From positions 1-64,000 of the forward strand of contig NZ_JALPTH010000028.1 of the NCBI RefSeq assembly GCF_023218175.1: 64,000 nt of DNA, read 5' to 3'. The notes under the pieces are model-generated. The model was not told the origin of the DNA. It did no database searches and was given only the letters and a program-made list of their open reading frames with translations. Origin of the DNA: Streptomyces lichenis. GTDB lineage: Bacteria; Actinomycetota; Actinomycetes; Streptomycetales; Streptomycetaceae. Position 1 is the stretch's first letter. Every line of letters starts with the position of its first letter. A program made the position numbers and the translations under genes. This document shows positions 41,782 to 58,785 of the stretch, in pieces.

Positions 41782-42924
<1,143 letters not shown>

Positions 42925-43146: not shown

Positions 43147-43220
43147 GCCTCCTTAGCTCAGCTGGCCAGAGCACCGCTCTTGTAAAGCGGGGGTCGTCGG
43201 TTCGAACCCGACAGGGGGCT
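43147..43220 (+). tRNA. tRNA-Thr (anticodon TGT)
   Basis: 74 nt. Acceptor stem GCCTCCT pairs with AGGGGGC; D-arm AGCTCAGCTGGCCAGAGC; anticodon stem CCGCT/AGCGG with loop CTTGTAA, anticodon TGT; T-arm GTCGG TTCGAAC CCGAC; discriminator T. CCA is not encoded. TACACT at 43132-43137 is placed as a -10 box. An integrase remnant begins 91 bp downstream, so this tRNA probably served as an integration site. Confidence 0.97.
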
Positions 43221-43237
43221 CGATCCCTACCAGGGTG

Positions 43238-43270
43238 AACGCCCCCGCGGTCTCGGACCGCGGGGGCGTT
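43238..43270 (+). terminator. terminator after tRNA-Thr
   Basis: AACGCCCCCGCGGTC (43238-43252), loop TCG, GACCGCGGGGGCGTT (43256-43270): a perfect 15-bp stem 18 nt after the tRNA end. Confidence 0.85.
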
Positions 43271-43310
43271 GAGGTAGTTCTTGACGGCAGTCCCGCTCAG
43301 CGACGCCGTT

Positions 43311-43463
43311 TCAGCAGGCAGCCATAGCCTCCCAGCGGTGGTTGTCGCTGACGTGGGTGTCGACGTTCATGGTCACCGCGATCTGCGAGTGGCCGAGGAT
43401 CTCCCTGACGGTGCGGGGCGCGACGCCGGCGGCGAACAGCAGGGACGCGCAGCCGGAAAGCAT
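43311..43463 (-). pseudogene. tyrosine recombinase (integrase) C-terminal remnant
   Basis: 50 codons survive: LSGCASLLFAAGVAPRTVRE then ILGHSQIAVTMNVDTHVSDN, clearly the end of an actinomycete phage-type integrase (LGHSQIAVTMNVYTHV). The catalytic Tyr is Asp here (GAC for TAC), and the N-terminal 85 percent with the other catalytic Arg and His residues is gone. It cannot be active. It sits right behind tRNA-Thr, so it is a scar of an integrated element. Confidence 0.85.
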
Positions 43464-43497
43464 TCGGCCAATTACTCATGTACTACGCTGAAAGTCC

Positions 43498-43974
43498 CTA
43501 GACCGCGCTCCCTGCGGTTGGTGGGGCTGGGGGGATGCCGCCTGCGGCCGCCGGTGGGGAACCGGCTTGAGGCGGCACCGTTGGAGCGGTGTTGGCAGCC
43601 ATGGCGTTCACCTGACGGGCAAAGCTGCTCATGGCCTTGAAATCCGGCATTTTGCGCAGAACGAATATGGCTGCGATCGAGCTCGCTGGCATACCTACCA
43701 GCAGAACGGCGTAACCGGATTCCCCCTTTTTCACCATCTCAAATGCCAACAAGGTGAATCCGAGAATGAGCCCGGCGGCGGCGAGTTGGCCGACCAGCAC
43801 TTGAAGCATCTTGCCGATCGCCTCTAGCCGTTGCGCCCGATAGTCGGTGGTCAGGGTACGCAGTACGATTCGCAGGTTCTTCTTATTCGCTACTTCTAAG
43901 TGCTTGATCATTTCAAGTAGCTGCCCGGCCAGGTGGGAGTCTGCAGCGGCGTAGGACTCCGAGCGGTCGTTCAA
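43498..43974 (-). CDS. two-helix membrane protein, accessory
   Basis: 158 residues, family not recognised. A charged helical N-terminus (HLAGQLLEMIKHLEVANKKN), two membrane helices (about 62-82 and 88-107) with only a few residues between, then a Pro/Ala-rich cytoplasmic-like end. GC is clearly lower and third positions less biased than in the core genes, which suggests transfer. Its ATG overlaps the stop of the next upstream gene by 4 bp (ATGA), so both are coupled. A DUF2335-like relation is possible but not demonstrable. Confidence 0.7.
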   Translation of the reverse strand: MNDRSESYAAADSHLAGQLLEMIKHLEVANKKNLRIVLRTLTTDYRAQRLEAIGKMLQVLVGQLAAAGLILGFTLLAFEMVKKGESGYAVLLVGMPASSIAAIFVLRKMPDFKAMSSFARQVNAMAANTAPTVPPQAGSPPAAAGGIPPAPPTAGSAV

Positions 43975-44657
43975 GCGCTCTTCTCCTGCAGGTCTGAGAC
44001 CATCAAGGTGAGTGTCTGCTTCACTGGGTGGCTGGGATCGACGCTCTGCATGACCCGGCGTGCCGTGTCATGGTGGTGGTCGGCGTCTGCCGTTCCGTCA
44101 CGGAGGCCGGATGCCTGTCCGTACTCTGCCACGATCTGCATAAGCAGAGTGAGCGCCGCAGTTGGATCCGTCTGACTCTTGCGTACGAGCCGGTTGACCG
44201 TGAGGTCTTCGACCCGTTCGTCCGCCAAGGAGTGCAGAGTCGCGTACAACTCACTGTTGCGACGCATCCTTCGATCCAGGGAGAATCTAAGGGCGGCAAG
44301 AAAGAAGGCGACCGCGACCAGGGAAAATGCCGAGACCAAGCCGATGACCAGGATTGGCCAACGTGTATCGGCGGCGAGGGCGACCGCGGCAAGGCCAGCT
44401 GACACGGCGGCGGACACGAAGCTACCCATCACGGCAGCGAGGCGTAATGAGGAAAGTCGCTTATGCGCCTTGCTGTCCGCAGGCCCCTTTGCCTCCGGCA
44501 TGGTGCTGGTGATAGCGCTCAGCAGGGCGTTGAGCTCCTCTAGCCTGCCATTGAGGTCGCCTGAGCACCCCTCGCTCACATAGTGCGTTGGAGGCGAAGC
44601 GCCTGTGGGGGCTAAGACGCTCAGCACGCCGGCCCGTACGTTCTTCTTCCACGCCAT
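43971..44657 (-). CDS. two-helix membrane protein, first gene of accessory pair
   Basis: 228 residues from ATG 44657 (MAWKKNVRAG); the in-frame ATG at 44714 is possible. Not recognised. N-terminal 70 residues soluble, then two adjacent membrane helices (about 73-95 and 100-122), then a soluble helical domain (LTLLMQIVAEYGQASGLRDG...HHHDTARRV). Same topology as the downstream partner: helix pair in the middle with cytoplasmic domains on both sides. Lower GC than neighbours. Coupled to 43498-43974 by ATGA. A Crp-like palindrome lies 113 bp upstream in the 322-bp gap. Confidence 0.68.
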   Translation of the reverse strand: MAWKKNVRAGVLSVLAPTGASPPTHYVSEGCSGDLNGRLEELNALLSAITSTMPEAKGPADSKAHKRLSSLRLAAVMGSFVSAAVSAGLAAVALAADTRWPILVIGLVSAFSLVAVAFFLAALRFSLDRRMRRNSELYATLHSLADERVEDLTVNRLVRKSQTDPTAALTLLMQIVAEYGQASGLRDGTADADHHHDTARRVMQSVDPSHPVKQTLTLMVSDLQEKSA

Positions 44658-44769
44658 GTGGCCCCCAGCTGACAGCACGGTGGCGCACCGAAGGCGCGCC
44701 ATGCACCTAATCAACCCGTACCCCTAGAGAACGGGCAACAAACACCCACAGCACCCACTTTGGTGCTCG

Positions 44770-44789
44770 GCTGTGATGTGTGTCACAGC
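44770..44789. promoter_or_regulatory. Crp-like palindrome upstream of membrane-protein pair
   Basis: GCTGTGA, TGTGTG, TCACAGC: perfect 7-bp arms with 6-bp spacer. It contains GTG(N6)GNCAC, the site I recall for Streptomyces Crp, and the classical TGTGA-N6-TCACA. A minus-strand TACAAT (44804-44799) lies just upstream as a possible -10, which would put the site over the start of transcription. The rest of 44658-44979 shows no gene. Confidence 0.55.
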
Positions 44790-44979
44790 CTAAGTGGCAT
44801 TGTAGTAGGGCGTGCCTCGTCGCGTAGGCGTTTTGGGCAAGGAGCGAGGCCGTTCCGCATGCGTTTCCTGGGCGTGTGATCCGGGGACGGGGCCCGGTGG
44901 GTGTTTCACCGGGGGAACGGCCGGCGTCCGGGGTCCCGGGTGCCACCCCTTCCACGTGAGTGACGCAGCGTATCTGCGT

Positions 44980-45309
44980 CTACGTGGTCAAGCTGGGCAG
45001 GTCGCCGTGTTCCGTCCACGTGTGTGGCGCGGCATGCCGAGCGAACAGACTGCACCCCTTCCCGTCCGCCCCTGGTTCCGCCGTCGGACAGTCCGCTAGC
45101 ACCGCCGGCGCCACCTGTCCGTCCCCCCGCCACCGGAGCCAGAGCGCCGTCCCGTACTCCTGCTCATCGTCCAGCAGCCCGAAGTGCTCCCCGTCGCCAT
45201 GCGCCCCCAGCTGGCACTGGACGCTGCGGTCCACGTCCCCCGCCCCCGACCGCTCCCGCGCCTCCCGCATCAGGTCGAGCGGCACCCGCCGCGTCCGCGT
45301 GCACCGCAT
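44980..45309 (-). CDS. small Cys/His-containing protein, Streptomyces-specific hypothetical
   Basis: 109 residues from ATG 45309, supported by GGAGGG 7 nt upstream; the frame is open to 45495 with a further CGCAVCR motif, so a longer protein starting at GTG 45423 is possible. It has the repeated pattern C-x-L-G-x-H-G-D-G-E-H-F-G-L-L and CSLFARHAAPHTW, two Cys/His units resembling small zinc sites. I recall similar proteins next to XRE/TPR regulators in Streptomyces, and it is divergent from one here. Function unknown. Confidence 0.55.
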   Translation of the reverse strand: MRCTRTRRVPLDLMREARERSGAGDVDRSVQCQLGAHGDGEHFGLLDDEQEYGTALWLRWRGDGQVAPAVLADCPTAEPGADGKGCSLFARHAAPHTWTEHGDLPSLTT

Positions 45310-45573
45310 CACGGCACCCTCCGCACGGAGGTGAGGGAGTGGAGCCGCCGCCGCTCGACATACCGCGCACCCGCAGGGCGGGAAGACGGTGGGGCTGACG
45401 GGTAGGGGGGTGTCCTCGTCCACACGCACTTCGGTGGGCGTCCCCCAGGTGCGTCCGGAGTCGCGCGAGATCCGCGGACGGCGAAGAAGGGCCAACGGGT
45501 ACGCAACCTGGGTAACATCACGAACGGTTGGCAGTGAACAGCGTTAGGTAGCTTCAGCGCCGGCGAGTGGCCG

Positions 45574-46862
45574 ATGCCCCAGCCGTCCCGTCCGCGGGGA
45601 CTTCCCCTCGAACTGCTCAGTGACCCGATGATGGTCGAGGCATGCCGGGTCAAGGACTTCGGCCGCATCTTCCAGTTGGCCAAGCACCGGGCCGGTGTCT
45701 ATCCATCCATGATCGCTCGGTGCTGTGACCTCATCCCGAGCCGCGTCGGGGAGGTGATGGCCGGACGTCGCCAGCTTCTCCACATGGACGTGGTCGAGCG
45801 GATCGCGGACGGTCTGCGAATCCCCGGGCACATGCTCGGGCTGGCCCGGCGTGACTGGGAGCCCCCGCAGACTCCAAGCGGGTCCCTCGGAGAACAACAC
45901 CGGCCTCGCTCGTCCAGTGCAGCGGCCGCGTTTCCGGGCGCCGGACTGGACGACGTCCTCACCCTGGTAGCGGAGCGCGACCTCACCGCGTCCACCCTGA
46001 TCGCGCTGCACTCCGCCATAACGGACTACTGGCGCCGCGACGACGAACACGGCGGTGAGACCTTACGGCCGGCCCTCCTGGACCACCTGCGCTACGTCTT
46101 GGCCCTGCTGCACGAGCGGCCCTCCCCGGCCATCCGCAATGGCCTGCACGGCGTGGCGGCCGAGTTGGCGCGCCTCACCGGATGGACCTACTTCGACGCC
46201 CGCCGGCATTCCCATGCGCGGGGCACCGCACCAAAGCCCTCGGACTGGCGAAGGCCATCGATGACAGCCTGTTCGTCGCCAATGTGCTTGCGTGTATGAG
46301 CCTTCAGGCCACCTACCAGGACAAGTCCGCCGATGCTCTGGCACTCGTCCGCGTGGCACAGGACCAAGCGGAGATGTCCTCGATGGCGACTCCCCGCCTC
46401 ACAGCCATGCTCGCCGTGCGTAAGGCCTTCGCCCATGCGAGTCTCGGTAACCGCAGCGCCGCTCACTCGGCGATCTCGGCAGCCCACGCCTCCTTCGATC
46501 GGGTCAGCGTCCACGACCCCGATCCGACCTGGGTGGCGTACTTCAACGAGCCGAAGCTGATCGCGGACACCGGCATCGTGCACGGCCAGCTCGGCGAGGT
46601 GGCCCTGGCCGAGCCGCTGATCGCGGACGCCCTGCGCCGCGAGCCATCGGCACACCATCGCAGCCGTGCCTTCCATGCCTTCTGGCTGGCCCGCGTCCAG
46701 CTCCGGCGGGGAGGTCTCGACCAGGCATGCCATACGGCTGCCGTAGCCCTCGTACCAGCCGGAGGGGTGGACTCACCACGCCTCACCGGCCATCTGCTGG
46801 AGCTGTACGAGGAGCTGCGGCCCTTCCACAGGCGCGGAAGACATGGTGCTGGGAGTCGGTGA
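45574..46862 (+). pseudogene. XRE/TPR-type transcriptional regulator, frameshifted and 3'-truncated
   Basis: The first frame (45574 onward) gives an HTH region (DFGRIFQLAKHRAGVYPSMI ... RVGEVMAGRRQLLHMDVVERIADGLRIP) and reaches LARLTGWTYFDARRHSHARG. The homologous continuation ALGLAKAIDDSLFVANVLAC with TPR-like helices is one frame away, to 46862. The shift is at the GGGG 46220-46223, consistent with one extra G. The end (ELRPFHRRGRHGAGSR) runs into the opposite-strand Nudix gene, which suggests that the native C-terminus was lost too. Could be a sequence error at the G run. Confidence 0.72.
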
Positions 46863-47199
46863 TGCCGTTGGCCGGCTCGGCGTAGATGAGCGGCTTCATC
46901 GGGCCGGGTCGCCAGCCGGTCTCCTCCAGCACCTCGCGGGCGGCGGCCTCGCCGGGCGTCTCGCCCACCTCGACCAGACCCATGGGCAACTCCCACGCCC
47001 AGGCATCCGTGATGAAGCGGTGCCGCCACATCATCAGCACCTCGCGACGGTCGTTGACGACGGCGGCCACGGCCAGGTGCCGGAGCTTGAGCACATGGTG
47101 CTCCCACCGGCACCCGTCCGGCTGCTCGACCTCCGTCAGCCAGACGTTCACCCAGGGGTTCTCGTAGATCTGTCGTTCCCCGTGGATCTTCCACCGCAT
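46783..47199 (-). CDS. Nudix hydrolase, C-terminally truncated
   Basis: 138 residues with a complete Nudix box GLVEVGETPGEAAAREVLEETGW (G-x5-E-x7-REVxEExGW) and the ADP-ribose pyrophosphatase-like start WKIHGERQIYENPWVNVWLTEVEQPDG. After GITDSQHHVFRA the expected last helix and strand (about 45 residues) are replaced by CGRAAAPRTAPADGR read through the end of the convergent regulator. So both convergent genes are cut at about 46835-46845. Catalysis might survive because the box is intact, but folding is doubtful. GAGGGG lies 9 nt before ATG 47199. Confidence 0.72.
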   Translation of the reverse strand: MRWKIHGERQIYENPWVNVWLTEVEQPDGCRWEHHVLKLRHLAVAAVVNDRREVLMMWRHRFITDAWAWELPMGLVEVGETPGEAAAREVLEETGWRPGPMKPLIYAEPANGITDSQHHVFRACGRAAAPRTAPADGR

Positions 47200-47387
47200 C
47201 GCCGCAGCCCCTCTCGATCGTTCTCAGGATCGCGGAACGACCGCCGACGGTGGCCTCGTTGGAGTCATTTACGTCAGAAGGACGAAATCGGCTCGGGCGA
47301 GCTCATAGACTCCCCGCGCTGCCCAGCGGTTCGGGCAGCCGAGCCGAAGCCGTCGCGCCATGTGCGCCGAGATGAAGAGGGATGGCC

Positions 47388-47747
47388 ATGTCGCAGACCG
47401 AGGGTGCACGACTGTTCCGCGAGGCTTGGATCGACGGCGTCCGCCGCCACCTCCCCGGCGAGCCGAAGGCCGGGTACATCACGCCCTGGGGCGACACCCC
47501 GCAGTGGGAGCGCGAGGCCGCGGGCGCGGTCTACGAGCAGGTCCGCCAGTTCGTCGCCGTGAGCGGCGGCACCACGGCCCGGCTCAGCCGCGAGCAGAAG
47601 GGCCGCTTCGTGGCCATCTGCTGGATCGCTCAGATGTACAAGCACTTCGGCGACCCGAAGCCGGGGTATGTGGCCGACTGGGCAGAGCTGCCCGGGTGGC
47701 AACAGGAGACGGACGCGGACATCTTCGAGGCCATCGAGAGGACCTGA
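47388..47747 (+). CDS. conserved actinomycete hypothetical protein
   Basis: 119 residues from ATG 47388, placed 6 nt after GAGGG; ATG 47382 touches that site and is less likely. Soluble, with repeated Trp/Asp/Gly patterns (PKAGYITPWGDTPQWE and PKPGYVADWAELPGWQQETD are two related units) and end IFEAIERT. The internal similarity suggests a duplicated small domain. I recall such proteins in many Streptomyces mobile regions, without a known role. Divergent from the Nudix gene. Confidence 0.7.
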   Translation: MSQTEGARLFREAWIDGVRRHLPGEPKAGYITPWGDTPQWEREAAGAVYEQVRQFVAVSGGTTARLSREQKGRFVAICWIAQMYKHFGDPKPGYVADWAELPGWQQETDADIFEAIERT

Positions 47748-47765
47748 AGAGGCCAGCCGGCGTGT

Positions 47766-48084
47766 TCACCGGTTCCAGACCACCTGCTGGAACTCCTCGG
47801 CGGGGACGGCCTCCAGTAGATCCGCTTCAGGCTCGATCGCCTGGTCCGTGAGGAAGCCGTGCTCGTCCGCCAGGTGCTTCCAGCTGTACTGGTAGGAGTC
47901 GGCCGGTGGAGGTGAGCTCGGCTTGCCTGATGACGACCAGCTCGCCGCGGTCGGGTACGGCCTCGACGTACCAGAGGCCGCCCTCCTCATCAGCGTGCCG
48001 GAAGTGGTGCCGCTGAGTGGCGCCTTGGGCGAGGGCGCGAATGTACGTCGCGGTCTCCGCTTCGATGCGCTCCAGGTCGACCAC
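47766..48084 (-). pseudogene. hypothetical protein gene with frameshift
   Basis: From GTG 48084 the frame reads VVDLERIEAETATYIRALAQ ... DRGELVVIRQAELTSTGR, then the natural continuation YQYSWKHLADEHGFLTDQAI appears one frame away and ends at 47766. The shift lies at about 47895-47898 (one extra base in GGAG). The joined product would be about 105 residues. Function unknown. It stands 59 bp behind the lipoprotein gene. Confidence 0.65.
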
Positions 48085-48143
48085 GGGACCGTCGTGGCAG
48101 CCGGCCGGAGGTGTCCGCAGTGCTCCAGCCGCCCCGGTCGCCC

Positions 48144-48671
48144 TCAGAAGCGCTCGACCTTCTGGCCGTCGGGGACCTGGTAGCAGCCGCTGGTGACGAA
48201 GAGGTTCAGCTTCGGGGGGTCCTCGTTGGCCCAGTGGGTGATCTCGACGCTGTACTTCTTCCGGTCGTTGTCGGCGACCAGGGTGACGCTTCGGTTCTTG
48301 CTGGTATTGGGACCGTAGGAGACGATCTTCCAGCCGTGCTTGGGCATCTCCTCCTTGAGCCGCTCCATCACGCCGGTGAGTTCGTCGGGGCTCTTGGGGG
48401 TGAAGGTCCACGGGTGGAAGACCGTGAAGTACTTCTCCGCGTCCTTGTCCGAGCACTCCGATACGCCGGGACCCGTGTTGGTCGCCTTGCCCTGGAGGCC
48501 GATGAGGTCGTAGAGCTCGCTGGAGACCTTCTCCGCCTGGTCGGCGGCGGCATCGGTGGTGGCGGTGCCCGCGGAGGGGAGGGAGTCTTCGGTGTTGGTC
48601 ATGCTGCATCCGATGAGGGTCGTGAGGGCGAGGGACACGAAGAGTGCGAACGCACCTGGCCTGGCTTTCAT
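48144..48671 (-). CDS. lipoprotein of the WXG100/DUF1023 operon
   Basis: 175 residues with signal peptide (FALFVSLALTTLIGC; lipobox LIGC, lipidated Cys near 22). The mature part has a conserved pattern around SECSDKDAEKYFTVFHPWTF and ends VTSGCYQVPDGQKVERF; two further Cys may pair. Its ATG is 4 nt after the stop of the upstream hydrolase frame, so it belongs to that operon. Function unknown. Confidence 0.8.
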   Translation of the reverse strand: MKARPGAFALFVSLALTTLIGCSMTNTEDSLPSAGTATTDAAADQAEKVSSELYDLIGLQGKATNTGPGVSECSDKDAEKYFTVFHPWTFTPKSPDELTGVMERLKEEMPKHGWKIVSYGPNTSKNRSVTLVADNDRKKYSVEITHWANEDPPKLNLFVTSGCYQVPDGQKVERF

Positions 48672-48675
48672 CTGA

Positions 48676-50497
48676 CTAACGCACTCCTGGTGTGGGGTTC
48701 GGCGGCGGCTTCAGGTGCACCTCATCCTGCTTGCCTGCGACGACCAGGCCCTGGTTCTTCAGGCTCCTGGTGTTCTCCTTCCAGTAGTCGCTGTGGCCCG
48801 AGGTGTCCGTGGTCATCTGGTTGGCGCCGAAGCGCTCGTCACTGGGGTTCGTCCACGGGCCGTCCCAGTCGGTTCCACCGTGTCCGAACCGGCCGACGTC
48901 CGGGACGATGTCCCCGTCCGCCTCCTGGTTCCAGACGTGGGCCCTTGGGCACGTCCAGCTGCTCCGCCTTGGGCACCTGCACGCCAGGGCTGCCGGCGAG
49001 GACCACGTCGTCCGCGTTCAGGTCCCCCTGCCGGGCCGCCGAACCGATCACGGTGGTGCCGTACGAATGGCCGATCGCCGTGCGGTGCGGGTCCGTGTCG
49101 GATGTGCGCGAGGCGTCGAGGCCGTCGAGGAAGCGGTTGTAGGCCGGTGCGCCGTCATCGGCGTAGTGGCTGAACGGCGAGTCCTTCACGATGTCCTGCG
49201 GGGCGTCGTAACCGAGCCAGGTGATCGTGGAGACGGAGCCGTTGTTCGCGCCCTCGGCCGCCCGCCAGACGTTCTCCATCCGGTTGATGTCGCCGTTGAT
49301 GCTGCTCAGGTTGGACTTGGTGCCGGGTACGAAGACGGCCTGGTGATCGGCCGTGTCCGGGTTGCCGTTGGCGACGATCGCCCGGCCATTGCCCTCGGCG
49401 CTGAAGCCGAGCAGATAGGCCTCGGGAAGGCCCCGCTCACCTGACCGGTCGATCCGGGCCTGGATGGCGTTCATGCCCCTCAGAGAGTTGTTGAGCCGCT
49501 CGTAACGATCGTTGTACGCGCGGTGCCACTCCATGTACTCGTCCGTGTGCACCCTGACCGGGGCGCGGCCCGTGGTGACCCACGTCCATTCGTTGCGGGG
49601 TGGCTCGGGAATCGAGGCCAGTTCCAGCTGGTACTGGCCTCGCCTCTCCGCGAGCACCGTCCGGTTCGCCTCGTCGCGCACGGTGGCGGGCAGGCCGTCG
49701 AGGGCCCCCGTGGCCGCGGGCCGGAGTGACAGCCATGCCTCCTGCTGCTCGGCAGTGAGCCCCTTCCACCAGGCGGCGTTGTCCTTCGGGGTGCCGTCCT
49801 TGGGCGGCTGGGGGAGCGAGTCGCGGTAGGCCGCGCCCGCCTGCTCGACCCCGGCCATGTCCGACTGCGCGTCGGCCCAGTCCGCGTCAGACACCATCAG
49901 GTCGTCGTCGGCCTTCAGCGCCCGCAGCTTCGGCGCCCACTTCGCGTCCGCGTCCGAAGCCTCCCTGAGCGCGTCGGCGATCCGGTTGGCGAACTCGATC
50001 GCCTTGCCGTAGTTCGGGTTGGGGTGGATGTTGATCGCCTGGCGCTCGATGGCGTCCGACGTGGCGGTGCCCCCGGCGCTGCCGGTCACCGTGCCGCCTT
50101 CGGCGGCCTTCTCCGCGCCGGGCTTCGCACCCGCCGGGAAGGCCACCGATCCGTCCGGATTCACCGTGCATCCGGCGGCTTGGGCGTCGGCGAGCGCCAC
50201 GTCCAGCCGCCGCTTGGCCGCCCCGACGTCGAAGGCGAACGCGTTCAGCGCCGTGCTCACCAGACCGCACTCGACCTGCGTGTAGTGGAAGTTGCCCGAT
50301 AGGCTCTTCAGTTCGTCCAGGGCGGTGCTCGCCGCCTCGCCTTGCAGCCGGGCGCTGACGCCCATGGAGATCCGGCCGTCGAGGGTGTCCTTGGCCGTGC
50401 GCGCCATGTCGGCGACGGCCCGGTAGCCGTCCGCCGCCTCCTCGTACTCGGACTGCCGGAAGGCTTGCAGGGTCTTGATGTCCATGACCGCGCTCAC
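48676..50497 (-). CDS. DUF1023 alpha/beta-hydrolase with WXG-like N-terminus (frameshift near 3' end)
   Basis: Start GTG 50497 overlaps the upstream stop (GTGA). Residues 1-190 are helical and WXG100/secretion-substrate-like. The hydrolase part holds HRTAIGHSYGTTVIG with the nucleophile Ser near 478 and the core of DUF1023. In the uninterrupted frame the protein stops at 48839 (552 residues) after an unrelated end. The expected ending HVWNQEADGDIVPDVGRFGHGG ... is in the next frame, and restores a stop TAG at 48676-48678 right before the lipoprotein ATG. One extra C in GGGCCC (48939-48944) accounts for it. Native length would be about 606. Confidence 0.8.
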
Positions 50498-50940
50498 TTC
50501 GCCTTCGCGCCGCCGCCGACGGGCTCGGTGTCCCCGTATCGCGCGGTGATCGCGTCCAGCTCCTGCTTGACCGACTCGTCGGTCTTCGCCAGGTCGTGCC
50601 CGGCCCGCCGGAGGAGACCGCCCAGCGCGTCACAGCGGCCGCTCACGTCCCCGACGTACTTCTTCCAGGAGGCGTACAGCTCCTTCTGCGCGGCCGCGCT
50701 CGCGATCCCGCCGGTGTCGCCCAGCCCGGCCTGCCCGGAGTCCAGCTTCGTGAGCGAGGAGGCGATGCCCTCCTTCAGGCCGATCACACCCGACCCGGCC
50801 TCCGCCCATGCCTTCTTGTCCGTCTTCAGGTCCTCGGAGAACCCGCCGCCCGGCCCGGCCGCGGCCTGGTTCAAGCTCATCGACGTCGGCTCGCGCCCCG
50901 CCGCCTCGCTCTTGAGCCGTTCCCACTCGTCCCACGGCAC
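50494..50940 (-). CDS. WXG100-like helical protein, ESX-type partner
   Basis: 148 residues from GTG 50940 with GGGGGG 7 nt upstream. Begins PWDEWERLKSEAA and is wholly helical, with a long C-terminal helix (SVKQELDAITARYG). Length and pattern resemble the small helical partners of WXG100/LXG systems. Its stop overlaps the hydrolase start by 4 bp. Likely secreted or membrane-associated through a type VII-like route, but no secretion genes are in the window. Confidence 0.75.
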   Translation of the reverse strand: MPWDEWERLKSEAAGREPTSMSLNQAAAGPGGGFSEDLKTDKKAWAEAGSGVIGLKEGIASSLTKLDSGQAGLGDTGGIASAAAQKELYASWKKYVGDVSGRCDALGGLLRRAGHDLAKTDESVKQELDAITARYGDTEPVGGGAKAK

Positions 50941-51086
50941 TGCTGAACCCCCCTTTGTCCACCGGGCCACGCTATCGCCCGGACACGGCGTGATGATCTC
51001 AGACGTTCCGTCAACGCGTGAGCCGGTCAACCGCGGCGCGCGGAGAGCTATCAGACGGAAGGGAACGACGAGAGGGAGTGGTGGAG

Positions 51087-51989
51087 ATGGGTGGCCAGGC
51101 GGTAGGCGGGAGCGGGGCGGCTTGGGCGGTGGGGGATGTGGTGGTTCATCGGGTGGATGAGCTGCTGCTGGCGGAGGGGACGGGGGCCTGGTTGCTGCCG
51201 GGGGCCACGCCGGAGGTGGTGGGGCGGGAGGAGTGGTTGCGGCCGGACTTCGCGGATGCGGAGGGGGTGTTGCGGCTGGCCAGCCATAGCTTCGCGTTCG
51301 AGGTGGGCGGGGTGAAGGTGGTGGTGGACACCGGGATCGGGAACGGGAAGGAGCGGGCCAATCCGGCGTGGCACGGGCTGCGGACGGACTACCTGGAGCG
51401 GTTGGCGGCGGTGGGGTTCGCGCCGGAGTCGGTGGATGTGGTGGTGCTGACGCATCTGCATGCTGATCATGTGGGGTGGAACACCACGATCACCGAAGAG
51501 GGTTGGGTGCCTACGTTTCCGAATGCGCGGTATGTGGTGTCGCGGGTGGAGCGGGAGTTCTGGGCCGGGTACGCGATGGACGAGGCGCGGCGGCAGATGT
51601 TCCGGGACTCGGTGGAGCCGGTGGAGCGGGCGGGGCTGATGGACGCGGTGGAGGTGGGGGCCCAGGGGCGTGAGCTGGTGCCGGGGGTGCGGTTGGTGCC
51701 GACGCCCGGACATACGCCGGGGCATGTGGCGGTGCGGGTCGACGGGGATGGTGGGGCGGGGGCGGTGATCACGGGGGACTGTGTGCACCATCCGGTGCAG
51801 CTCGTCCGGCCGGGGATCGGGTCGTGTGTGGACATCGATCCGGAGGCGGCGGAGGAGACGCGGCGGGCGCTGCTCGGGGAGCTGGCCGGGACCGGGACGC
51901 TGCTGCTGGGGACCCATTTCGCGCCGCCCACGGGTGGGCTGGTGGTGCGGGAGGGGGAGGGGTACCGGCTGGTGGCCGGTGAGAGGTAG
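51087..51989 (+). CDS. metallo-beta-lactamase-fold hydrolase
   Basis: 300 residues. Zn motif THLHADHVGW (HxHxDH), then GHTPGHVAVRV, ITGDCVHH and GTHFAPPT supply the remaining metal ligands. Related to lactonase-type MBL hydrolases (quorum-quenching AiiA-like or other). Start ATG 51087 follows GTGGAG/GGAG; conserved sequence begins after residue 15. Codon choice favours G in third position (GTG, GGG) more than the neighbours. Substrate unknown. Confidence 0.87.
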   Translation: MGGQAVGGSGAAWAVGDVVVHRVDELLLAEGTGAWLLPGATPEVVGREEWLRPDFADAEGVLRLASHSFAFEVGGVKVVVDTGIGNGKERANPAWHGLRTDYLERLAAVGFAPESVDVVVLTHLHADHVGWNTTITEEGWVPTFPNARYVVSRVEREFWAGYAMDEARRQMFRDSVEPVERAGLMDAVEVGAQGRELVPGVRLVPTPGHTPGHVAVRVDGDGGAGAVITGDCVHHPVQLVRPGIGSCVDIDPEAAEETRRALLGELAGTGTLLLGTHFAPPTGGLVVREGEGYRLVAGER

Positions 51990-52060
51990 GGGCGTTCAAC
52001 TCCTTGCGGTGGGAGACGGGTTGCCCTAGGTTGAGCGCCCAGTTAAGCGACCGTGTCAAT

Positions 52061-52072
52061 CGACTTAAGTCG
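52061..52072. promoter_or_regulatory. 12-bp perfect palindrome in peptidase promoter region
   Basis: CGACTTAAGTCG, AT-rich in its centre, flanked by TCAA and TTGA at unequal distances, 111 bp before the peptidase ATG. A related GTTAAGCGAC lies 20 bp earlier. It could be an operator; the 193-bp gap has no other visible signal. Confidence 0.4.
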
Positions 52073-52182
52073 GTAGTTGAGTCGCGGGCCGCCGCTGCAC
52101 CCCGCGCCGCCGGATCCCCCCGGCGCACCGCTCCCCCGGTGCGCCGGCCGGTGGCCTCCCCCACGCCAAGGAGTCCGTTTCC

Positions 52183-53517
52183 ATGAGCAGATACCCAGAT
52201 CGGGGCGCCCTGGTGGCGCCCGCCCGCCCGATGTCCCGCAGCCGGAGGCTGATGACGGCCGCGGTGGCCGGGGCGTTGACCGTCGGCGCGCTGGGCCTCG
52301 CGGCCTCGCGGGTGGAGGCGGCCCCCGCCGGAGTGGAGAGCCCGGCGGGGGTGGTAGGGACGGAGCATCGGGAGGTGTTCTCGCCGGACGGGTCCATACG
52401 GACGGTCGAGATACCCGTGCAGCGCGAAGCGGCGCCGGACGCGCGGTCGTCGAGGGCAGCGGCGGCGGCCACCGTGGAGCCGGTGGAGGTGAACGGGCCC
52501 AGCAGCAGCAAGGTGGACCTGGTCTTCGTCGGTGACGGCTACACCTCGGCGCAGATCGCCACCTACCGCGGGCATGTGAAGTCCAAGGTGAACGAGCTGT
52601 TCGCGGTCGAGCCGTTCAAGAGCTACCGCTCGATGTTCAACGTCTGGCAGGTCAACGTGGTCTCCCGGGAGTCCGGGGTGGACGACGACCCGACCCAGGG
52701 CGTCCGCCGGGACACCGCGCTGGACATGAACTACTACTGCGGCGGCATGGCCCGGCTGCTGTGCGTCAACGAGGCCAAGGCCGCGCAGTACGCGGCGGCC
52801 GCGCCGCAGGTGGACCAGGTCGTCGCCCTCGCCAACAGCACCACCTACGGCGGCGCCGGCGGCACGGCGGCCACCGCGGCCGGCGGCAACGCCCAGGCCG
52901 GGCAGATCATGGTCCACGAACTGGGCCACTCGCTGGGCGGGTTGGCCGACGAGTACGACAGCCCGGGCCGCTACCAGGGTGGCGAGCCGTCCGAGCCGAA
53001 CGTCTCGGTCTACCCGCAGGCCACCATGAAGCAGTACAAGCTGAAGTGGCACCGCTGGCTCGGCCAGCCCACCCCGGACGGCGGGACGATCGGCACCTTC
53101 GAGGGCGCCAAGTACGCCACCCAGGGGATCTACCGGCCCAGCCAGAACTCGATCATGCGGACGCTGGGCAGGGAGTTCAACGCCCCGGGGCGGGAGACCA
53201 TGATCGCGGCGTTCTACCGGAAGGCGGGGGTCGCGCAGAAGGCGGCCACCACCAAGGGCTCGTCCGGTGGGCAGCGGCTGGGCGTGGAGGCGCAGCGGCC
53301 GGAGGGTGCGGCGCTGACGGTGAAGTGGGCGATCGACGGCAAGCCGTACGCCCACAAGGGCTCCTGGCTGGACACCTCGCGGCTGCCCAAGGGGCTGCTG
53401 AAGGGGAAGGGCGCCCACAAGGTTACGGCGACGGTCGTCGACCGGACCCCGTGGGTGCGCGACCCGGCGCTGAAGGCCGACCTCACCCGCACCCTCACCT
53501 GGACCGTGCGCCGGTAG
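52183..53517 (+). CDS. secreted M64 (IgA peptidase-like) metallopeptidase
   Basis: 444 residues. Signal peptide with RR pair (MSRSRRLMTAAVAGALTVGA), cleavage near VEA-AP at 45-48. Catalytic motif HELGHSLGGLADEY: His245, Glu246, His249 and Asp256 fit the M64 family (HExxHxxGxxxDE). Secreted zinc peptidase, perhaps degrading extracellular protein. The C-terminal 110 residues form a beta-rich accessory domain. The upstream region has a palindrome at 52061-52072. Confidence 0.92.
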   Translation: MSRYPDRGALVAPARPMSRSRRLMTAAVAGALTVGALGLAASRVEAAPAGVESPAGVVGTEHREVFSPDGSIRTVEIPVQREAAPDARSSRAAAAATVEPVEVNGPSSSKVDLVFVGDGYTSAQIATYRGHVKSKVNELFAVEPFKSYRSMFNVWQVNVVSRESGVDDDPTQGVRRDTALDMNYYCGGMARLLCVNEAKAAQYAAAAPQVDQVVALANSTTYGGAGGTAATAAGGNAQAGQIMVHELGHSLGGLADEYDSPGRYQGGEPSEPNVSVYPQATMKQYKLKWHRWLGQPTPDGGTIGTFEGAKYATQGIYRPSQNSIMRTLGREFNAPGRETMIAAFYRKAGVAQKAATTKGSSGGQRLGVEAQRPEGAALTVKWAIDGKPYAHKGSWLDTSRLPKGLLKGKGAHKVTATVVDRTPWVRDPALKADLTRTLTWTVRR

Positions 53518-53538
53518 GGGTAGGGACGAGGGGACGGG

Positions 53539-53578
53539 CGGATGGGCCGCCGGCTGAGGAGGGCCGGCGGCCCATCCG
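53539..53578. terminator. perfect 16-bp hairpin between convergent genes
   Basis: CGGATGGGCCGCCGGC (53539-53554) and its exact reverse complement (53563-53578) enclose an 8-nt loop. It separates the peptidase from the convergent TPR regulator. Confidence 0.8.
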
Positions 53579-53623
53579 CGTACGCCCGGGGCTTGGCGTA
53601 CGCGCGGGGGCACCCGGGTCGGC

Positions 53624-55042
53624 TCAGACCGGGGGTTCCTGCGGGGCGGGGCCCAGGGTGGTGGCGCCGGTGGCGGCGTAGCGGGTGAGGCCGCTGCGGT
53701 AGACGGTGATCGCCTCCTCCGTACGGCCGGTGCGGTGCAGCAGATCGCCCAGCAGCCGGCAGAGGTCGGCCATGTCGCCGGCGGCCCCGGCCGGGCGCAG
53801 CAGGTCCAGGGCGTGCCGGTAGGACCGTTCGGCGCCGGTGTCGTCGCCCCGGTCCTCGGCCAGCAGCCCGAGCAGCCGGTGCGCGCCGCCCGCGTGGACG
53901 GCGCCGTGCTCGGGGCCGAGCCGCTCCAGCAGCCCGGTGAGCAGTTCGGCGGCCTCCTCGGCCCGGCCCCGGCGGCGCAGCACATCGCCGAGCTCCACGC
54001 CCACCTGGGTGGCGAACAGCTCGGCGCGGCGCTCGACCAGGATGGTGTGCGCGGTGCGCAACTCCGTCTCCGCACGGTCCAGTTCGCCGACCTGGGCGTG
54101 GACATAGCCGCGCATCCAGTGGCAGTGGGCCAGCTCGGTGCGGATCTGGAGCCGGCGGTACATCTCCTGGGCCCGGACCAGGTGGTCGGCGGCCTCCTCG
54201 GTGCGGCCCTCGGCGATCAGGGTGCGGGCCACCCCCCGGTGCATCCGGGCCACCAGCGCCGGGTCCTCGATCCGGGGCACCAGGGAGAGCGCGAGGTTCG
54301 CGGCCTGGGCGGCCCGGGTGTGCGCGCCCATGTCCATGTACGGGGCGATCACCGCCGTGTAGAGCAGGACCAGCGCCTCGGGGTCGGGCAGACCGGAGGC
54401 GTTCAGCCGGTCGATGGCTGTCTCCAGCAGATAGCAGGCGTACCGCAGGTCGCCCGCCAGGAGGTGGGCGGTGGCCCGGCCGCGCAGGGCCGGCACCCGG
54501 TGGTGCAGCGGCGCCTCGGCGAGGACCTCCTCGCAGGAGCGGAAGAGCTCGATGGCACGCTGGAGGTCGCCGGTCTCCAGGGCGCAGTCGCCGAGTCCCA
54601 GCAGGGCCGCCGCCTCCTCGTCGGGCAGGTCCAGCCGTACGGCGTCGGCGCGGACCGCCTCGAAGAGCGCCCGCGCCTGGTGGGCGTCCCCGGTGGCCAG
54701 TTCCCGGCGGGCGTCGGTGGCGCGCAGCCGCACCTCGCCGACCAGCCGGGCGGAGCGCCCGGTGGCCAGTTCGTCCAGGCCGACACCGAGCTTGGCGGCG
54801 ATATGCCGCAGCGCCGCCTCGGAGGGGCGGACCTTTCCCGCTTCCAGGGTGGAGATGTAGCCGGCCGTGTAGTTGGGCTCGGCCACCTGCCGCTGGGTGA
54901 GGCCGCGCTCCCGCCGCAGCCGCCGTACCCGCTCGCCCAACTCGGGGTCGGGAGAGGGGGAAGGGGAGGGGGAGGAGGTCGGGGAGGGGGCGGGGTCAGG
55001 GCCGGGTTCGGGTTCGGGGTCGGGGGCCGCTCGGTCGGTCAT
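53624..55042 (-). CDS. XRE-type regulator with TPR domain
   Basis: 472 residues. A Pro/Asp/Ser-rich stretch of 35 residues, HTH at about 38-95 (ERVRRLRRERGLTQRQVAEP...GYISTLEAGKVRP), then about eight TPR-like helix pairs (ALLGLGDCALETGDLQRAIELF). The architecture is that of Streptomyces pleiotropic XRE/TPR regulators. It is divergent from the Mrr-TerD gene across 199 bp and may regulate it. ATG 55042 has no good ribosome site, so leaderless translation is possible. Confidence 0.85.
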   Translation of the reverse strand: MTDRAAPDPEPEPGPDPAPSPTSSPSPSPSPDPELGERVRRLRRERGLTQRQVAEPNYTAGYISTLEAGKVRPSEAALRHIAAKLGVGLDELATGRSARLVGEVRLRATDARRELATGDAHQARALFEAVRADAVRLDLPDEEAAALLGLGDCALETGDLQRAIELFRSCEEVLAEAPLHHRVPALRGRATAHLLAGDLRYACYLLETAIDRLNASGLPDPEALVLLYTAVIAPYMDMGAHTRAAQAANLALSLVPRIEDPALVARMHRGVARTLIAEGRTEEAADHLVRAQEMYRRLQIRTELAHCHWMRGYVHAQVGELDRAETELRTAHTILVERRAELFATQVGVELGDVLRRRGRAEEAAELLTGLLERLGPEHGAVHAGGAHRLLGLLAEDRGDDTGAERSYRHALDLLRPAGAAGDMADLCRLLGDLLHRTGRTEEAITVYRSGLTRYAATGATTLGPAPQEPPV

Positions 55043-55241
55043 GGGGTCATGATCGCTCAGGGGCGACCCGAAGGCAGCCCGTCGGAGCGGTCGCGTTCGC
55101 GCAGCAAGACGCAGCAAGACGCAGGATGACGGGGAGTTTCGGCCGGAAGTCTCCCTCGGGGGTGGATCGTCCGGGACACTTGATACTTCAACGGGCGGTA
55201 GTGCGCGGGGAGTACGGCGGGAGCAGGGGAGGGGTGCGTCG

Positions 55242-57356
55242 ATGGGGCGTCGTGCCAGTGGGCTGATCGCGACCTGGGCGGAGGCGCAGCGGCAGACGCA
55301 GCGCCAGCGGGAGGCCGAGCAGCGGGAGACCGCGCGGCTGTACCGGGAGGCCGAGCGGCGGCAGCGGGCGTACGAGCGGGATGTGAACCGGATGCAGCGG
55401 GAGCAGCGGGACGCGTACCGCAGGCAGCGGGAGGCGGAAGCGCTGCGGGCGACCGGGGAGTTGGAGGACCGGGTACGGGAGCTGGAGGGCTTGCTGGCCG
55501 CCGGGTGCGCCGGGAGGGCGTTCGGGGTGGCGGCGCTGCGGCGGCCGGAGGCGGTGGAGCCGTTCGCGCCCGGGGCGCTGGCCCGGCCGGTGCCGGAGCC
55601 GGACCTCGGGGCGTATCTGGCGGGCGCGGGGCGCTGGCCGCACCAGCAGACCGAGGCGCGGGCGCGCTTCGAGCGGGACTGGGCGGCGGCCAGTGCGGCC
55701 GAGGAGCAGCGGCGCCGCCAACTCGCCTCGTACCGGGCCCAGTACGACAGCTGGGCGGCGGGCCGGCTGGCGGAGATACGGGAGCACAACGCCTCCATCG
55801 CGGAGATGGACCGGGCCCTGCGGGCGGGCGAGCCGGACACCGTGGTCGAGTACTTCTCGGCGGCGCTGTACGCGTCGGAGTGCTGGCCGGAGGGGTTCCC
55901 GCGCCGGCTGACGGCCGCGTACGACCGGGGCGCCCGGCAGCTGGTGGTGGAGTGGGAGCTGCCCGGCTTCGAGGTGGTGCCCGAGCACCGGATGGTGCGC
56001 TATCTGATCAACGCGGACCAGCACAAGGAGGTGCCCCGGCCGGTCACCCAGCGCCGGGCGCTGTACCGGGACGTGCTGGCGCAGAGTGTGCTGCTGGCAC
56101 TGCGGGAGCTGTTCGCCGCCGACGAGGCGGGGGTGCTCGACTCGGTGGTGCTGAGCGGCTTCACCGACGGGCCCGATCCGGCGACCGGGCGCCCGGCGCG
56201 GGTGGTGCTGGCGACGGCGGCGGTGGAGCGGGCGGCCTTCGCCGGGATACGGATGGAGCTGGTCAGCGCGGTGGAGTGCCTGACCGGTGCCCTGGGCGGG
56301 CGGCTGTCGGCCAAGCCGGACGCGCGGACCCCGGTACGGGCGGTGCGCACCCCGGGCCAGGTCGGCACCGGGGTCGTCTCGCACGGCGGCGGCGAGGAAC
56401 CGGACCTGCTGGCGATGGACCCGGTGGAGTTCGAGCACCTGGTGGCCGAGCTGTTCCGGGCGCGCGGCCTCCAGGCGGTGACCACCCGGCGGTCCAACGA
56501 CGGCGGGGTGGACGTGGAGGCGGTCGACCCCGACCCGCTGAGCGGCGGCTCGATCCTGGTGCAGGTCAAGCGGTACCGGAACACCGTCCCGCCCAGCGCG
56601 GTACGGGACCTGTACGGCACCGTGCAGGGGGCGGGCGCCAACAAGGGCGTGCTGGTGACAACCTCCGGCTTCGGCCCCGGTTCGTACGCCTTCGCCGAGG
56701 GCAAGCCGCTCACCCTGGTCTCGGGCGCGGAGCTGGTGGACCTGCTGCACCGGCACGGGCTGCGGGGGCGGTTGGGGACTGGCACTCCGGAGCCGGCCCG
56801 GCCGCAGGAGGCCTCCGGGGACGGGAACGGAGACAGGGGCGGGGACAGGGACGGGGACTTCAATGTGCTGGGGATGGCGTGGACCGGGGCGGTGGCGGTG
56901 GATGTGTGCGCGCTGGTCTGCGCCGGCTCCCGGGCGCTGAGCGAGGAGCACTTCGTCTTCTACAACAACCCGGCCACCCCGGAGGGGGCGGTGCGGATGC
57001 TGCCCCGGCGGGCCGACCGGGGGAGTGCGCGGGGCGGTGACCGGGCGGCGGTACGGGTGGAGTTCGACGCCCTGCCGGCCGGCGCCGACCGGCTGGTGCT
57101 GGCGGCGGCCGTGGACCTGGAGGCGGACCCGGGCGCCGACCTGGGCGGGTTCGCCGAGGCGGCGATCCTGCTGCGGGACGCGGGCGGGGAGGAGCTGGAG
57201 CGGCTGGCGGTGTCGGACGGGCGCCCCGGCGAGACGGCCCTGGTGCTCGGGTCGTTCCGCCGCCGGGGCGGGGACTGGTCCTTCGTCCTGGGCGGGCGCG
57301 GCTACCGGGGCGGGCTGGCGGAGCTGGTGGGGGACTTCGGGATCGAGGTGGCGTGA
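55242..57356 (+). CDS. coiled-coil / Mrr-type endonuclease / TerD fusion protein
   Basis: 704 residues. Residues 10-85 are a highly charged coiled coil (QRQTQRQREAEQRETARLYR). Residues 140-345 are an uncharacterised middle region. Residues 390-505 match the Mrr_cat restriction-endonuclease fold: Glu397 (EFEHLV), Asp424 (NDGGVDV) and QVK at 441-443 with Lys443, the D...QxK core. A Gly/Asp linker (525-540) leads to a TerD domain (540-704) with NVLGMAWTG, FVFYNN and the Ca-site-like DLEADPGADLGGF. Expected: DNA cleavage linked to a Ter stress-sensing module. Possible promoter -10 GATACT at 55182-55187; GGGGAGGGG before the ATG. Confidence 0.88.
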   Translation: MGRRASGLIATWAEAQRQTQRQREAEQRETARLYREAERRQRAYERDVNRMQREQRDAYRRQREAEALRATGELEDRVRELEGLLAAGCAGRAFGVAALRRPEAVEPFAPGALARPVPEPDLGAYLAGAGRWPHQQTEARARFERDWAAASAAEEQRRRQLASYRAQYDSWAAGRLAEIREHNASIAEMDRALRAGEPDTVVEYFSAALYASECWPEGFPRRLTAAYDRGARQLVVEWELPGFEVVPEHRMVRYLINADQHKEVPRPVTQRRALYRDVLAQSVLLALRELFAADEAGVLDSVVLSGFTDGPDPATGRPARVVLATAAVERAAFAGIRMELVSAVECLTGALGGRLSAKPDARTPVRAVRTPGQVGTGVVSHGGGEEPDLLAMDPVEFEHLVAELFRARGLQAVTTRRSNDGGVDVEAVDPDPLSGGSILVQVKRYRNTVPPSAVRDLYGTVQGAGANKGVLVTTSGFGPGSYAFAEGKPLTLVSGAELVDLLHRHGLRGRLGTGTPEPARPQEASGDGNGDRGGDRDGDFNVLGMAWTGAVAVDVCALVCAGSRALSEEHFVFYNNPATPEGAVRMLPRRADRGSARGGDRAAVRVEFDALPAGADRLVLAAAVDLEADPGADLGGFAEAAILLRDAGGEELERLAVSDGRPGETALVLGSFRRRGGDWSFVLGGRGYRGGLAELVGDFGIEVA

Positions 57357-57396
57357 GCCTCCGTGTGCCCGTTGACGGACTCCGGCATGGTGCGGC

Positions 57397-58785
57397 TCAC
57401 CGGCCCGAGATGCGGTCGGCGAGGGTGGCGATGCGGTCGGTGGCCGTGGAGCGGGCGGCGGACTCGCGGCGGTCGGCGGCCCGGTAGGCGGCGTACAGGG
57501 TGTGCACCCCGAGCCAGCGCAGCGGCTCCGGCTCCCAGGTGCGCACCTGGTGGTCGACCCAGGGCAGGGTGGTCAGCTCGGTGGGGCCGGCCTGGCCGGA
57601 GTCCTGCTGGATGAGGTCGCGCAGGGTGCGGGCGGCGAGGTTGGCGGTGGCGACACCGGAGCCGACGTAGCCACCCGCCCAGCCCAGCCCGGTCGAGCGG
57701 TCCAGGGTGACCGTGGCGCACCAGTCGCGGGGCACGCCGAGGACGCCTGACCACGCGTGCTCGACGGCGGCGCCCGCCAGGCGGGGGAAGAGGCGGATCA
57801 GGATCTCGCGCAGGGCGAGCACGGTCGCCGGCTGCGTACGGCCGTCGTTGTCGGTGCGCGAGCCGTAGCGGTACGGCACACCCCGGCCGCCGATCGCGAT
57901 CCGGTCGTCGGCGGTGCGCTGGGCGTACATATAGGCGTGCGCCATGTCGCCGAGGGTCTCCCGGCCGTTCCAGCCGATCGCGTCCCACACCTCGGCGGGC
58001 AGCGGCTCGGTGACGATCATGGAGGAGTTCATCGGGAGCCAGGTCCGCTTGAGCCCCTTGAGGGTGGGCGTGAACCCCTCGGTGCAGCGCAGTACGTAGG
58101 GGGCGCGGACCGTGCCGTAGGGGGTGACGGCGTGCTTGGGCTTGATCTCGGTGACCGGGGTCGACTCGTGGATGGTGACGCCGAGGGCCTCCACGGCGGC
58201 CGACAGCCCCTGCACCAGCTTCACCGGGTGGATACGCGCCCCGTGCGGCGTCCAGCTCGACCCGACGGCGCCCGCCACCCGGATCCGCTCGGCGGTCTCC
58301 CGAGCCCCGAACAGCAGCCGGTCGGTCTCGCCGAAGGCCAGCTCCACGGAGTGGAAGTCGCGCAGCCGGGCGAGCTGGGCCGGGGTGTACGCCACTTCGA
58401 GGACGCCGCCCTGGTGGATGTCGGCGTCGATGCCCTCCTCGGCGGCGACCGTGATCACCTCGCCGACGGTGTCGTTCATCGCCCGCTGGAGCCGCTGCGC
58501 CGCCTCATGCCCGTGCGCCCTGGCGTAGCGGTCGCGGCCGGCGATGCCGTTGTAGAGCCAGCCGCCGTTGCGGCCGGAGGCCCCGTACCCGCAGAACGCC
58601 GCCTCCAGGACGGTGATGTTGAGGAAGGGCACGGCCTTCTTCAGGTAGTACGCGGTCCACAGTCCGGTGTACCCGCCGCCGACGATGCAGACGTCGGCCG
58701 TGGCGTCGCCGGGCAGCGGCTCCCGGGGCACGGGCGCGCCCTGCTGTGCGTACCAGAACGATATGCCGCCGTTGACGGTGTTCAT
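57397..58785 (-). CDS. FAD-dependent oxidoreductase (DAO / PuuB-like)
   Basis: 462 residues. FAD-binding ADVCIVGGGYTGLWTAYYL near 31-49, then CGYGASGRNGGWLY typical of gamma-glutamylputrescine oxidase and related DAO enzymes, and GWAGGYVGSGVATANLAARTL near the end. Likely oxidises an amine or amino acid, releasing H2O2 or reducing another acceptor. Substrate unknown; no puu or other polyamine genes are near. It converges on the TerD fusion gene, 40 bp apart. Confidence 0.9.
   Translation of the reverse strand: MNTVNGGISFWYAQQGAPVPREPLPGDATADVCIVGGGYTGLWTAYYLKKAVPFLNITVLEAAFCGYGASGRNGGWLYNGIAGRDRYARAHGHEAAQRLQRAMNDTVGEVITVAAEEGIDADIHQGGVLEVAYTPAQLARLRDFHSVELAFGETDRLLFGARETAERIRVAGAVGSSWTPHGARIHPVKLVQGLSAAVEALGVTIHESTPVTEIKPKHAVTPYGTVRAPYVLRCTEGFTPTLKGLKRTWLPMNSSMIVTEPLPAEVWDAIGWNGRETLGDMAHAYMYAQRTADDRIAIGGRGVPYRYGSRTDNDGRTQPATVLALREILIRLFPRLAGAAVEHAWSGVLGVPRDWCATVTLDRSTGLGWAGGYVGSGVATANLAARTLRDLIQQDSGQAGPTELTTLPWVDHQVRTWEPEPLRWLGVHTLYAAYRAADRRESAARSTATDRIATLADRISGR

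Follow-up and report, generated by a model that had tools for sequence, protein, structure and literature searches.

In CBASS, SAVED-nuclease effectors join a ligand-binding domain to a nuclease. In TerD proteins, whose function has long been obscure, acidic residues in the DxD and GDN/GDDE motifs bind Ca2+, and calcium binding is named in the title of structure 2kxt. SAVED and TerD are both treated in PMC7159879, and it has been proposed, there and in PMC7824862, that TerD may bind a nucleotide-derived signal. Several Mrr-type nucleases are also described. MspJI and AspBHI are modification-dependent enzymes with an Mrr-like nuclease and an SRA-like domain (for MspJI, PMC3874153); EcoKMrr carries an N-terminal winged helix (PMC12707154); and ScoA3Mrr of S. 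coelicolor (SCO4213) is listed as acting on m6A DNA in PMC3874153 and sits in a genomic islet according to PMC1934918. The mREase_IV family (PADLOC PDLC03663, 'type IV methyl-directed restriction enzyme') includes proteins that lack TerD and consist of a coiled coil, a middle domain, and an Mrr core. The protein analysed here resembles these last proteins in all three parts and in its catalytic set, resembles EcoKMrr and ScoA3Mrr at the level of the Mrr_cat nuclease and MspJI/AspBHI in the fold of its core, and differs from the mREase_IV members in that it bears a TerD domain as well. This makes it a direct test case for TerD function, i.e., a TerD domain covalently joined to a restriction-type nuclease.

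The gene (55242..57356, + strand, 704 aa from an ATG start) lies in the window, i.e., the whole stretch of 64,000 nucleotides of Streptomyces lichenis DNA that was analysed. It is preceded, at a distance of 7 nt, by the purine-rich stretch AGGGGAGGGG (55225..55234, +), which was read by eye as a likely ribosome-binding site. In most relatives, a start codon in the same frame stands at the aligned position or close to it, which speaks weakly for this ATG because the nearest in-frame codon was picked. According to an AlphaFold2 model (23 sequences, mean pLDDT 79, pTM 0.50), the protein begins with two long helices, the first a charged coiled coil (residues 8-82, 55263..55487, +) and the second spanning residues 133-194 (55638..55823, +), followed by a middle domain common to TerD-less relatives (residues 198-350, 55833..56291, +), a nuclease core (394-504), a disordered linker (514-545), and TerD strands (543-698). 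Pfam places the Mrr_cat nuclease domain at residues 390-502 (56409..56747, +) and the TerD domain, a degenerate one, at residues 549-699 (56886..57338, +). The intervening Gly/Asp-rich linker (56781..56876, +) is modelled with pLDDT below 50 and contains the least conserved 20-residue block of the fusion alignment (521-540); the TerD part is itself modelled less confidently, with residues 565-603 also below pLDDT 50. The sequence-only reading of a single open reading frame joining a coiled coil, an Mrr core, and a TerD domain is thus borne out by Pfam, AlphaFold2, and Foldseek.

The nuclease half of the protein is supported by strong family evidence. The Mrr_cat match (PF04471, profile positions 2-115 of 115, E 4e-32) covers the whole domain and lies far above the cut-off, as had been predicted from the letters, and the best solved nuclease matches found by Foldseek are MspJI (1.7e-6) and AspBHI (3.5e-5). 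Positions 398, 424, 441, and 443 are E, D, Q, and K in 59 of 59 aligned fusion rows, in 21 of 21 TerD-less relatives, and in 22 of 22 aligned TerD-less proteins from viral contigs (24 were translated, and two incomplete ones were dropped). Asp424 (56511..56513, +) and the Gln and Lys of Gln441-Val442-Lys443 (56562..56570, +) had been named correctly as catalytic residues, and a loss of Asp424 or Lys443 in most homologues was not found; the proposed Glu397, by contrast, is a Phe, and the conserved acid is the neighbouring Glu398 (56433..56435, +). Membership in a restriction and defence family is likewise supported, in that PDLC03663 aligns over its length with residues 18-512 (profile positions 22-533 of 544, 194 bits, E 9.5e-58). 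The same model gives higher scores of 355, 395, and 637 bits to three actinobacterial TerD-less proteins that were scanned, the highest belonging to a relative from the same genus. Because of this end-to-end match and of the 637-bit relative, the coiled coil, middle domain, and Mrr core together constitute an established family to which TerD alone has been added.

Less can be said about target recognition, which is presumed to reside in the middle domain. Modelled alone (residues 195-372), this part reaches a pLDDT of 93.8 and has no match among solved structures with E ≤ 0.001. Its description as an uncharacterised domain therefore holds insofar as it is a confident model with no clear solved match, but it is not specific to the fusion and forms part of the known TerD-less family. 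As for its identity, the best rows were sex-pheromone precursor proteins (Z 7.1-7.4) and MamM-CTD (Z 6.8), which fall within the range of unrelated models and were rejected. An SRA-like recognition domain, such as that of MspJI, was sought in the lone middle domain, and the best result, VIA at Z 7.4, was unspecific. Nor did Pfam reveal the N-terminal winged helix of EcoKMrr in the fusion: the matches with E up to 1 are Mrr_cat, TerD, and NA-iREase1 only, and Mrr_N is not among them. The nuclease may plausibly depend on modified DNA, given its family label.

The TerD assignment also withstood a profile search (PF02342, profile positions 37-187 of 187, E 2.8e-24, far above the cut-off), and the fold matches 3ibz from S. 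coelicolor (Foldseek, solved structures, E 6.5e-10). The fused domain resembles 3ibz and the Klebsiella structures 2kxt/2kxv in both fold and sequence, but canonical TerDs keep six acidic positions in the DxD and GDN/GDDE motifs, whereas this one, whose Pfam match starts only at profile position 37, keeps two of the six compared (D554 and D600). All 20 distinct Mrr-fused TerDs compared (21 rows) retain two or three. Among 59 other distinct TerDs, 29 retain all six (36 of 67 rows) and 25 keep three or fewer, the latter all in open reading frames of at least 241 aa, read from stop to stop; the overall share of degenerate domains is biased, since the set was partly hand-picked (20 regions were chosen, many of them for a match that starts late in the profile) and the 30 loci obtained by searching seven genomes are the best-scoring ones. 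Every one of the 59 fusion rows has D554 and D600, 52 of them carry Ala in place of the first Asp of DxD, and the DVCALVC motif is almost unchanged, the divergent fusions L129 and L130 differing from it. Two cysteines, C556 and C560, are likewise present in all of these rows. A redox role is not argued for them, because 16 of 67 other TerD rows share C560, and L129, L130, and the short form described below lack C556.

Since most of the acidic positions are absent, it is unlikely that the fused TerD senses Ca2+ or is controlled by it, and binding of another ligand or docking to a partner appears more likely. Within this context, the best reading, to which we give about half of our belief, is that of a solitary restriction nuclease whose TerD domain senses the Ter stress pathway or docks to it. 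The coiled coil would mediate oligomerisation, the middle domain would recognise the target, which, judging by the family, is plausibly foreign DNA that carries modifications, and the Mrr-type PD-(D/E)xK core would cut the DNA so recognised. In Streptomycetaceae, a TerD module would have been added behind a flexible linker; it would most likely sense the Ter machinery or dock to it, with a signal or a canonical TerD as its binding partner, and thereby gate or place the nuclease when the Ter pathway is active. The benefit would presumably be protection against phages. Such licensing by TerD would parallel that of CBASS nucleases by SAVED, the proposed layouts being alike. This comparison concerns the manner of working only, and the fusion has no conserved neighbouring synthase: no linked CBASS-like signal-synthase gene is conserved among 40 loci, and an unlinked one may exist. 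Ten open reading frames of this genome that were looked at for Ter signal-making genes gave matches to TerD, AhpC/TSA, and DUF3052 only.

TerD coupling, the other half of this reading, rests on published proposals and on recurring joins between TerD and nucleases. TerD is joined to Mrr in three layouts, i.e., the full fusion, a short form, and a reversed form. The short form, in which Mrr and TerD are joined without the middle domain, was found in one other genus of the family (L121-L128, of which L121 was profile-scanned); by eye, L124 has Arg in place of the catalytic Gln of QxK. In the reversed form, TerD comes first and Mrr last; it belongs to another family, in one genus of which an Mrr match of this kind occurs in five genomes. 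The four reversed proteins that were read (L133-L136) have Mrr matches with E 1.5e-32 or better and Pfam TerD matches with E 6e-15 to 1e-13 in three and just below the cut-off in L133. All four have Ser in place of Gln441, and their activity is uncertain; this substitution, like the Arg of L124, counts against the best reading. The TerD-Mrr pairing thus recurs in both domain orders. TerD trees place the reversed form and the fusion L130 among other TerDs with high support. However, an AU test, run on a tree from which six long-branch TerD rows had been dropped, does not reject a single clade for the C-terminal, reversed, and L130 fusions (p 0.265, 0.256, and 0.339), and separate origins of TerD are therefore not claimed. 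The branching order of the Mrr tree is unresolved; L107 and L132, which stand in both the TerD and the Mrr trees, are the same gene.

Nucleases of other folds are also joined to TerD. Among ten multidomain proteins scanned, taken from seven genomes searched for TerD, three combine an RNase_T-type exonuclease with TerD (L007 from this genome, L203, and L215) and one combines TerD with HNH (L201). The remaining partners were TerF-like vWA (L202 and L204), CAP (L209), and TerB (L196, below the cut-off), and in L195 and L208 TerD was the only domain seen. The protein from this genome (L007:1489-3435, -, near position 6163 of contig C34) consists of an RNase_T-type exonuclease, BRCT, and a degenerate TerD, and L201:1326-3338 (-), from another actinomycete family, holds TerD, DUF2510, and an HNH endonuclease in one open reading frame. 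A protein of Streptomyces radicis (L119:8628-10232, +) has an N-terminal part that by eye resembles a Ser/Thr kinase and a C-terminal TerD. The repeated pairing with nucleases in both orders fits a class of effector-borne TerD switches. In a broader and rather doubtful extension of this idea, effector-borne TerDs of actinomycetes that have lost most acidic positions would serve as switches or docking pieces for Mrr, RNase_T-type, and HNH nucleases, and the present fusion would be the restriction branch of the Ter pathway, licensed by a nucleotide-like signal or by a canonical calcium-binding TerD partner.

A simpler view is that the protein is a plain modification-dependent restriction enzyme, in which TerD conveys no signal and only oligomerises, stabilises, or localises the nuclease. 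The loss of most acidic positions agrees with this, as does the retention of the catalytic set by TerD-less relatives of the same layout in many genomes; because the TerD-less form occurs by itself, TerD cannot be essential for the basic activity of the family, a point that counts against the Ter-coupled reading. Nevertheless, TerD has been kept across the family with DVCALVC almost unchanged in the 59 rows (L129 and L130 again apart), and it recurs with nucleases of other folds, so that this view is possible but clearly less probable than a nuclease coupled to the Ter pathway. The distinction matters, since if TerD gates the nuclease, the Ter stress system is linked to genome defence in these bacteria, whereas if it does not, the fusion is a decorated type IV-like enzyme. 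The TerD-less relatives provide natural controls for the effect of TerD.

The distribution of the fusion bears on both the nuclease coupled to the Ter pathway and its competitors. Its nearest named relatives are found in S. pyxinae (80%), S. huiliensis (64%), and S. roseus (61%). A match at E ≤ 1e-30 occurs in 83 of 199 same-genus genomes; counted by hand from the match rows, 65 of these hold a one-piece full-length copy (including L027 of G072, which has an internal TAG), two a full-length copy in two in-frame pieces with a longer linker, eight a partial, split, or remnant copy, and eight a TerD-less relative only; partial or split matches were noted in G013, G112, G118, G164, G168, G171, G190, and G196. 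The fusion thus occurs in roughly one in three of the sampled genomes from the same genus, and full-length copies also exist in several other genera of Streptomycetaceae, where a search returned matches in 136 of 150 genomes at E ≤ 1e-20, a threshold at which single TerDs also count. Among 394 genomes of the class, the middle and Mrr parts were found in 24 outside the family (hand count), and none of these matches extends past query residue 540. The fusion is further present on two Streptomyces plasmid records (60-62% identity over 93% of the query), and TerD-less relatives occur on plasmids of Methylobacterium, Xanthomonas, Agrobacterium, and others and at 29 loci on viral contigs, three of which match over the Mrr part alone. 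No description of a TerD-Mrr fusion was found in the literature searched; Anantharaman et al. 2012, which lies outside that search and may describe it, limits the statement that the protein body appears to be of a known type and its TerD-bearing form new.

It might also be asked whether the nuclease is aimed at foreign DNA at all. Since TerD is a stress-linked domain, and pressure stress can turn E. coli Mrr against the cell's own chromosome (PMC3874153 and PMC12707154), the protein could be a stress-triggered nuclease that cuts the DNA of its own cell, leading to cell death of an abortive or developmental kind. In keeping with this, 8 of the 83 matching genomes have a partial, split, or remnant copy as their sole fusion match. 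However, 67 of the 75 fusion-bearing genomes keep a full-length copy (one with the internal TAG), and no antitoxin-like or immunity neighbour is conserved among the loci compared, which makes self-directed cleavage decidedly unlikely. The joining of TerD to RNase_T/BRCT and HNH proteins could in turn point to a housekeeping nuclease of the Ter system, active in DNA repair or DNA processing and not directed against foreign DNA. The patchy presence of the gene (one-piece copies in 65 of 199 genomes), its changing chromosomal sites, its relatives on viral contigs and plasmids, and its match to a restriction-family profile all argue against this proposal, which we consider very improbable.

The surroundings of the gene were compared among relatives as well. 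Approximately 200 bp from the fusion and divergent from it lies a gene for an XRE and TPR protein (53624-55042, -), and it had been asked whether homologous fusions recur next to this regulator. The gene is real and divergent, as described, and the arrangement in this genome is what a two-gene system in which the regulator controls the nuclease would look like. However, it is absent from the 32 other fusion or remnant loci and from the 7 TerD-less loci, within stretches of up to 20 kb, so that a conserved partnership is not supported. A two-gene system is hence the least credible of the explanations, and as a conserved feature it is close to refuted; control of the nuclease in this strain is a separate matter. 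More generally, the fusion family apart, each gene cluster occurs in at most 9 of the 40 loci compared; there is thus no conserved neighbour that could make or relay a signal, which counts against the Ter-coupled reading.

A second question, whether such fusions recur in defence islands, was addressed at 20 loci. The genes called mechanically within three places of the fusion (118 of 120, two L054 genes being omitted) were compared with 120 of the 145 genes that lie five or more places from it at the same loci, with a threshold of E ≤ 1e-15. In the near set, two genes have helicase-type matches (to the DpdF, PsyrT, and BrxH models, with E values as low as 1.7e-297), and five models match a single gene apiece; in the far set, mad3 matches two genes and nine models match a single gene apiece, including mREase_IV at 4e-21. 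Defence families near the fusion are therefore in no excess over the far genes at these 20 loci, which speaks against a general defence-island setting.

The window itself shows a setting of a different kind. The fusion lies in a 14.2 kb gap (43147-57396), at the end formed by a gene for an FAD-dependent oxidoreductase (DAO; 57397..58785, -); the other edge is a tRNA-Thr (TGT) gene (43147..43221, +), beyond which lies a conserved gene for a sugar-type ABC ATPase (41782..42924, -), which we take to be msiK-like. At E ≤ 1e-150, 72 of the 101 genomes searched from the same genus contain the oxidoreductase gene. Among 20 chosen loci without the fusion at this place, 16 have the order oxidoreductase, tRNA-Thr (TGT), and ABC ATPase, the distance from oxidoreductase to tRNA ranging from 63 bp to 14.1 kb; in the remaining four, such an order is not visible within the stretch fetched. 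Since the gap is variable, the best-scoring frames 3' of the oxidoreductase fall into 22 groups in 30 loci (mechanical call). The same gap holds the fusion in L040, L042, L043, L071, and L077. In L039 and L066, the fusion is near the oxidoreductase gene with no tRNA within the stretch, and in L041 it stands beside the window's GNAT and alcohol-dehydrogenase-like genes without a close copy of the oxidoreductase. As 24 of the 32 loci are without this flank, the hotspot is a property of the window and its near relatives and not of the family.

In this clade, the fusion gene is thus accessory cargo at a variable, tRNA-linked site: the tRNA-Thr gap in which it lies contains different genes in different genomes. 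Among 81 open reading frames in 14 such gaps, three match phage integrase and one matches NaeI. In the corresponding gap of a further genome (L251:8760-11203), a type II REase, taken to be this NaeI match, stands with Vsr and a cytosine methylase. Three of the 81 match a TNT toxin domain (hotspot gaps of L247-L263). No direct repeats of at least 22 bases were found in 42-52 kb of the window. The GC content drops to 66-69% at 42-50 kb, and at 48839-51030 (-) a WXG100-like gene (a weak match, below the cut-off) overlaps a gene for an Abhydrolase_8-type hydrolase.
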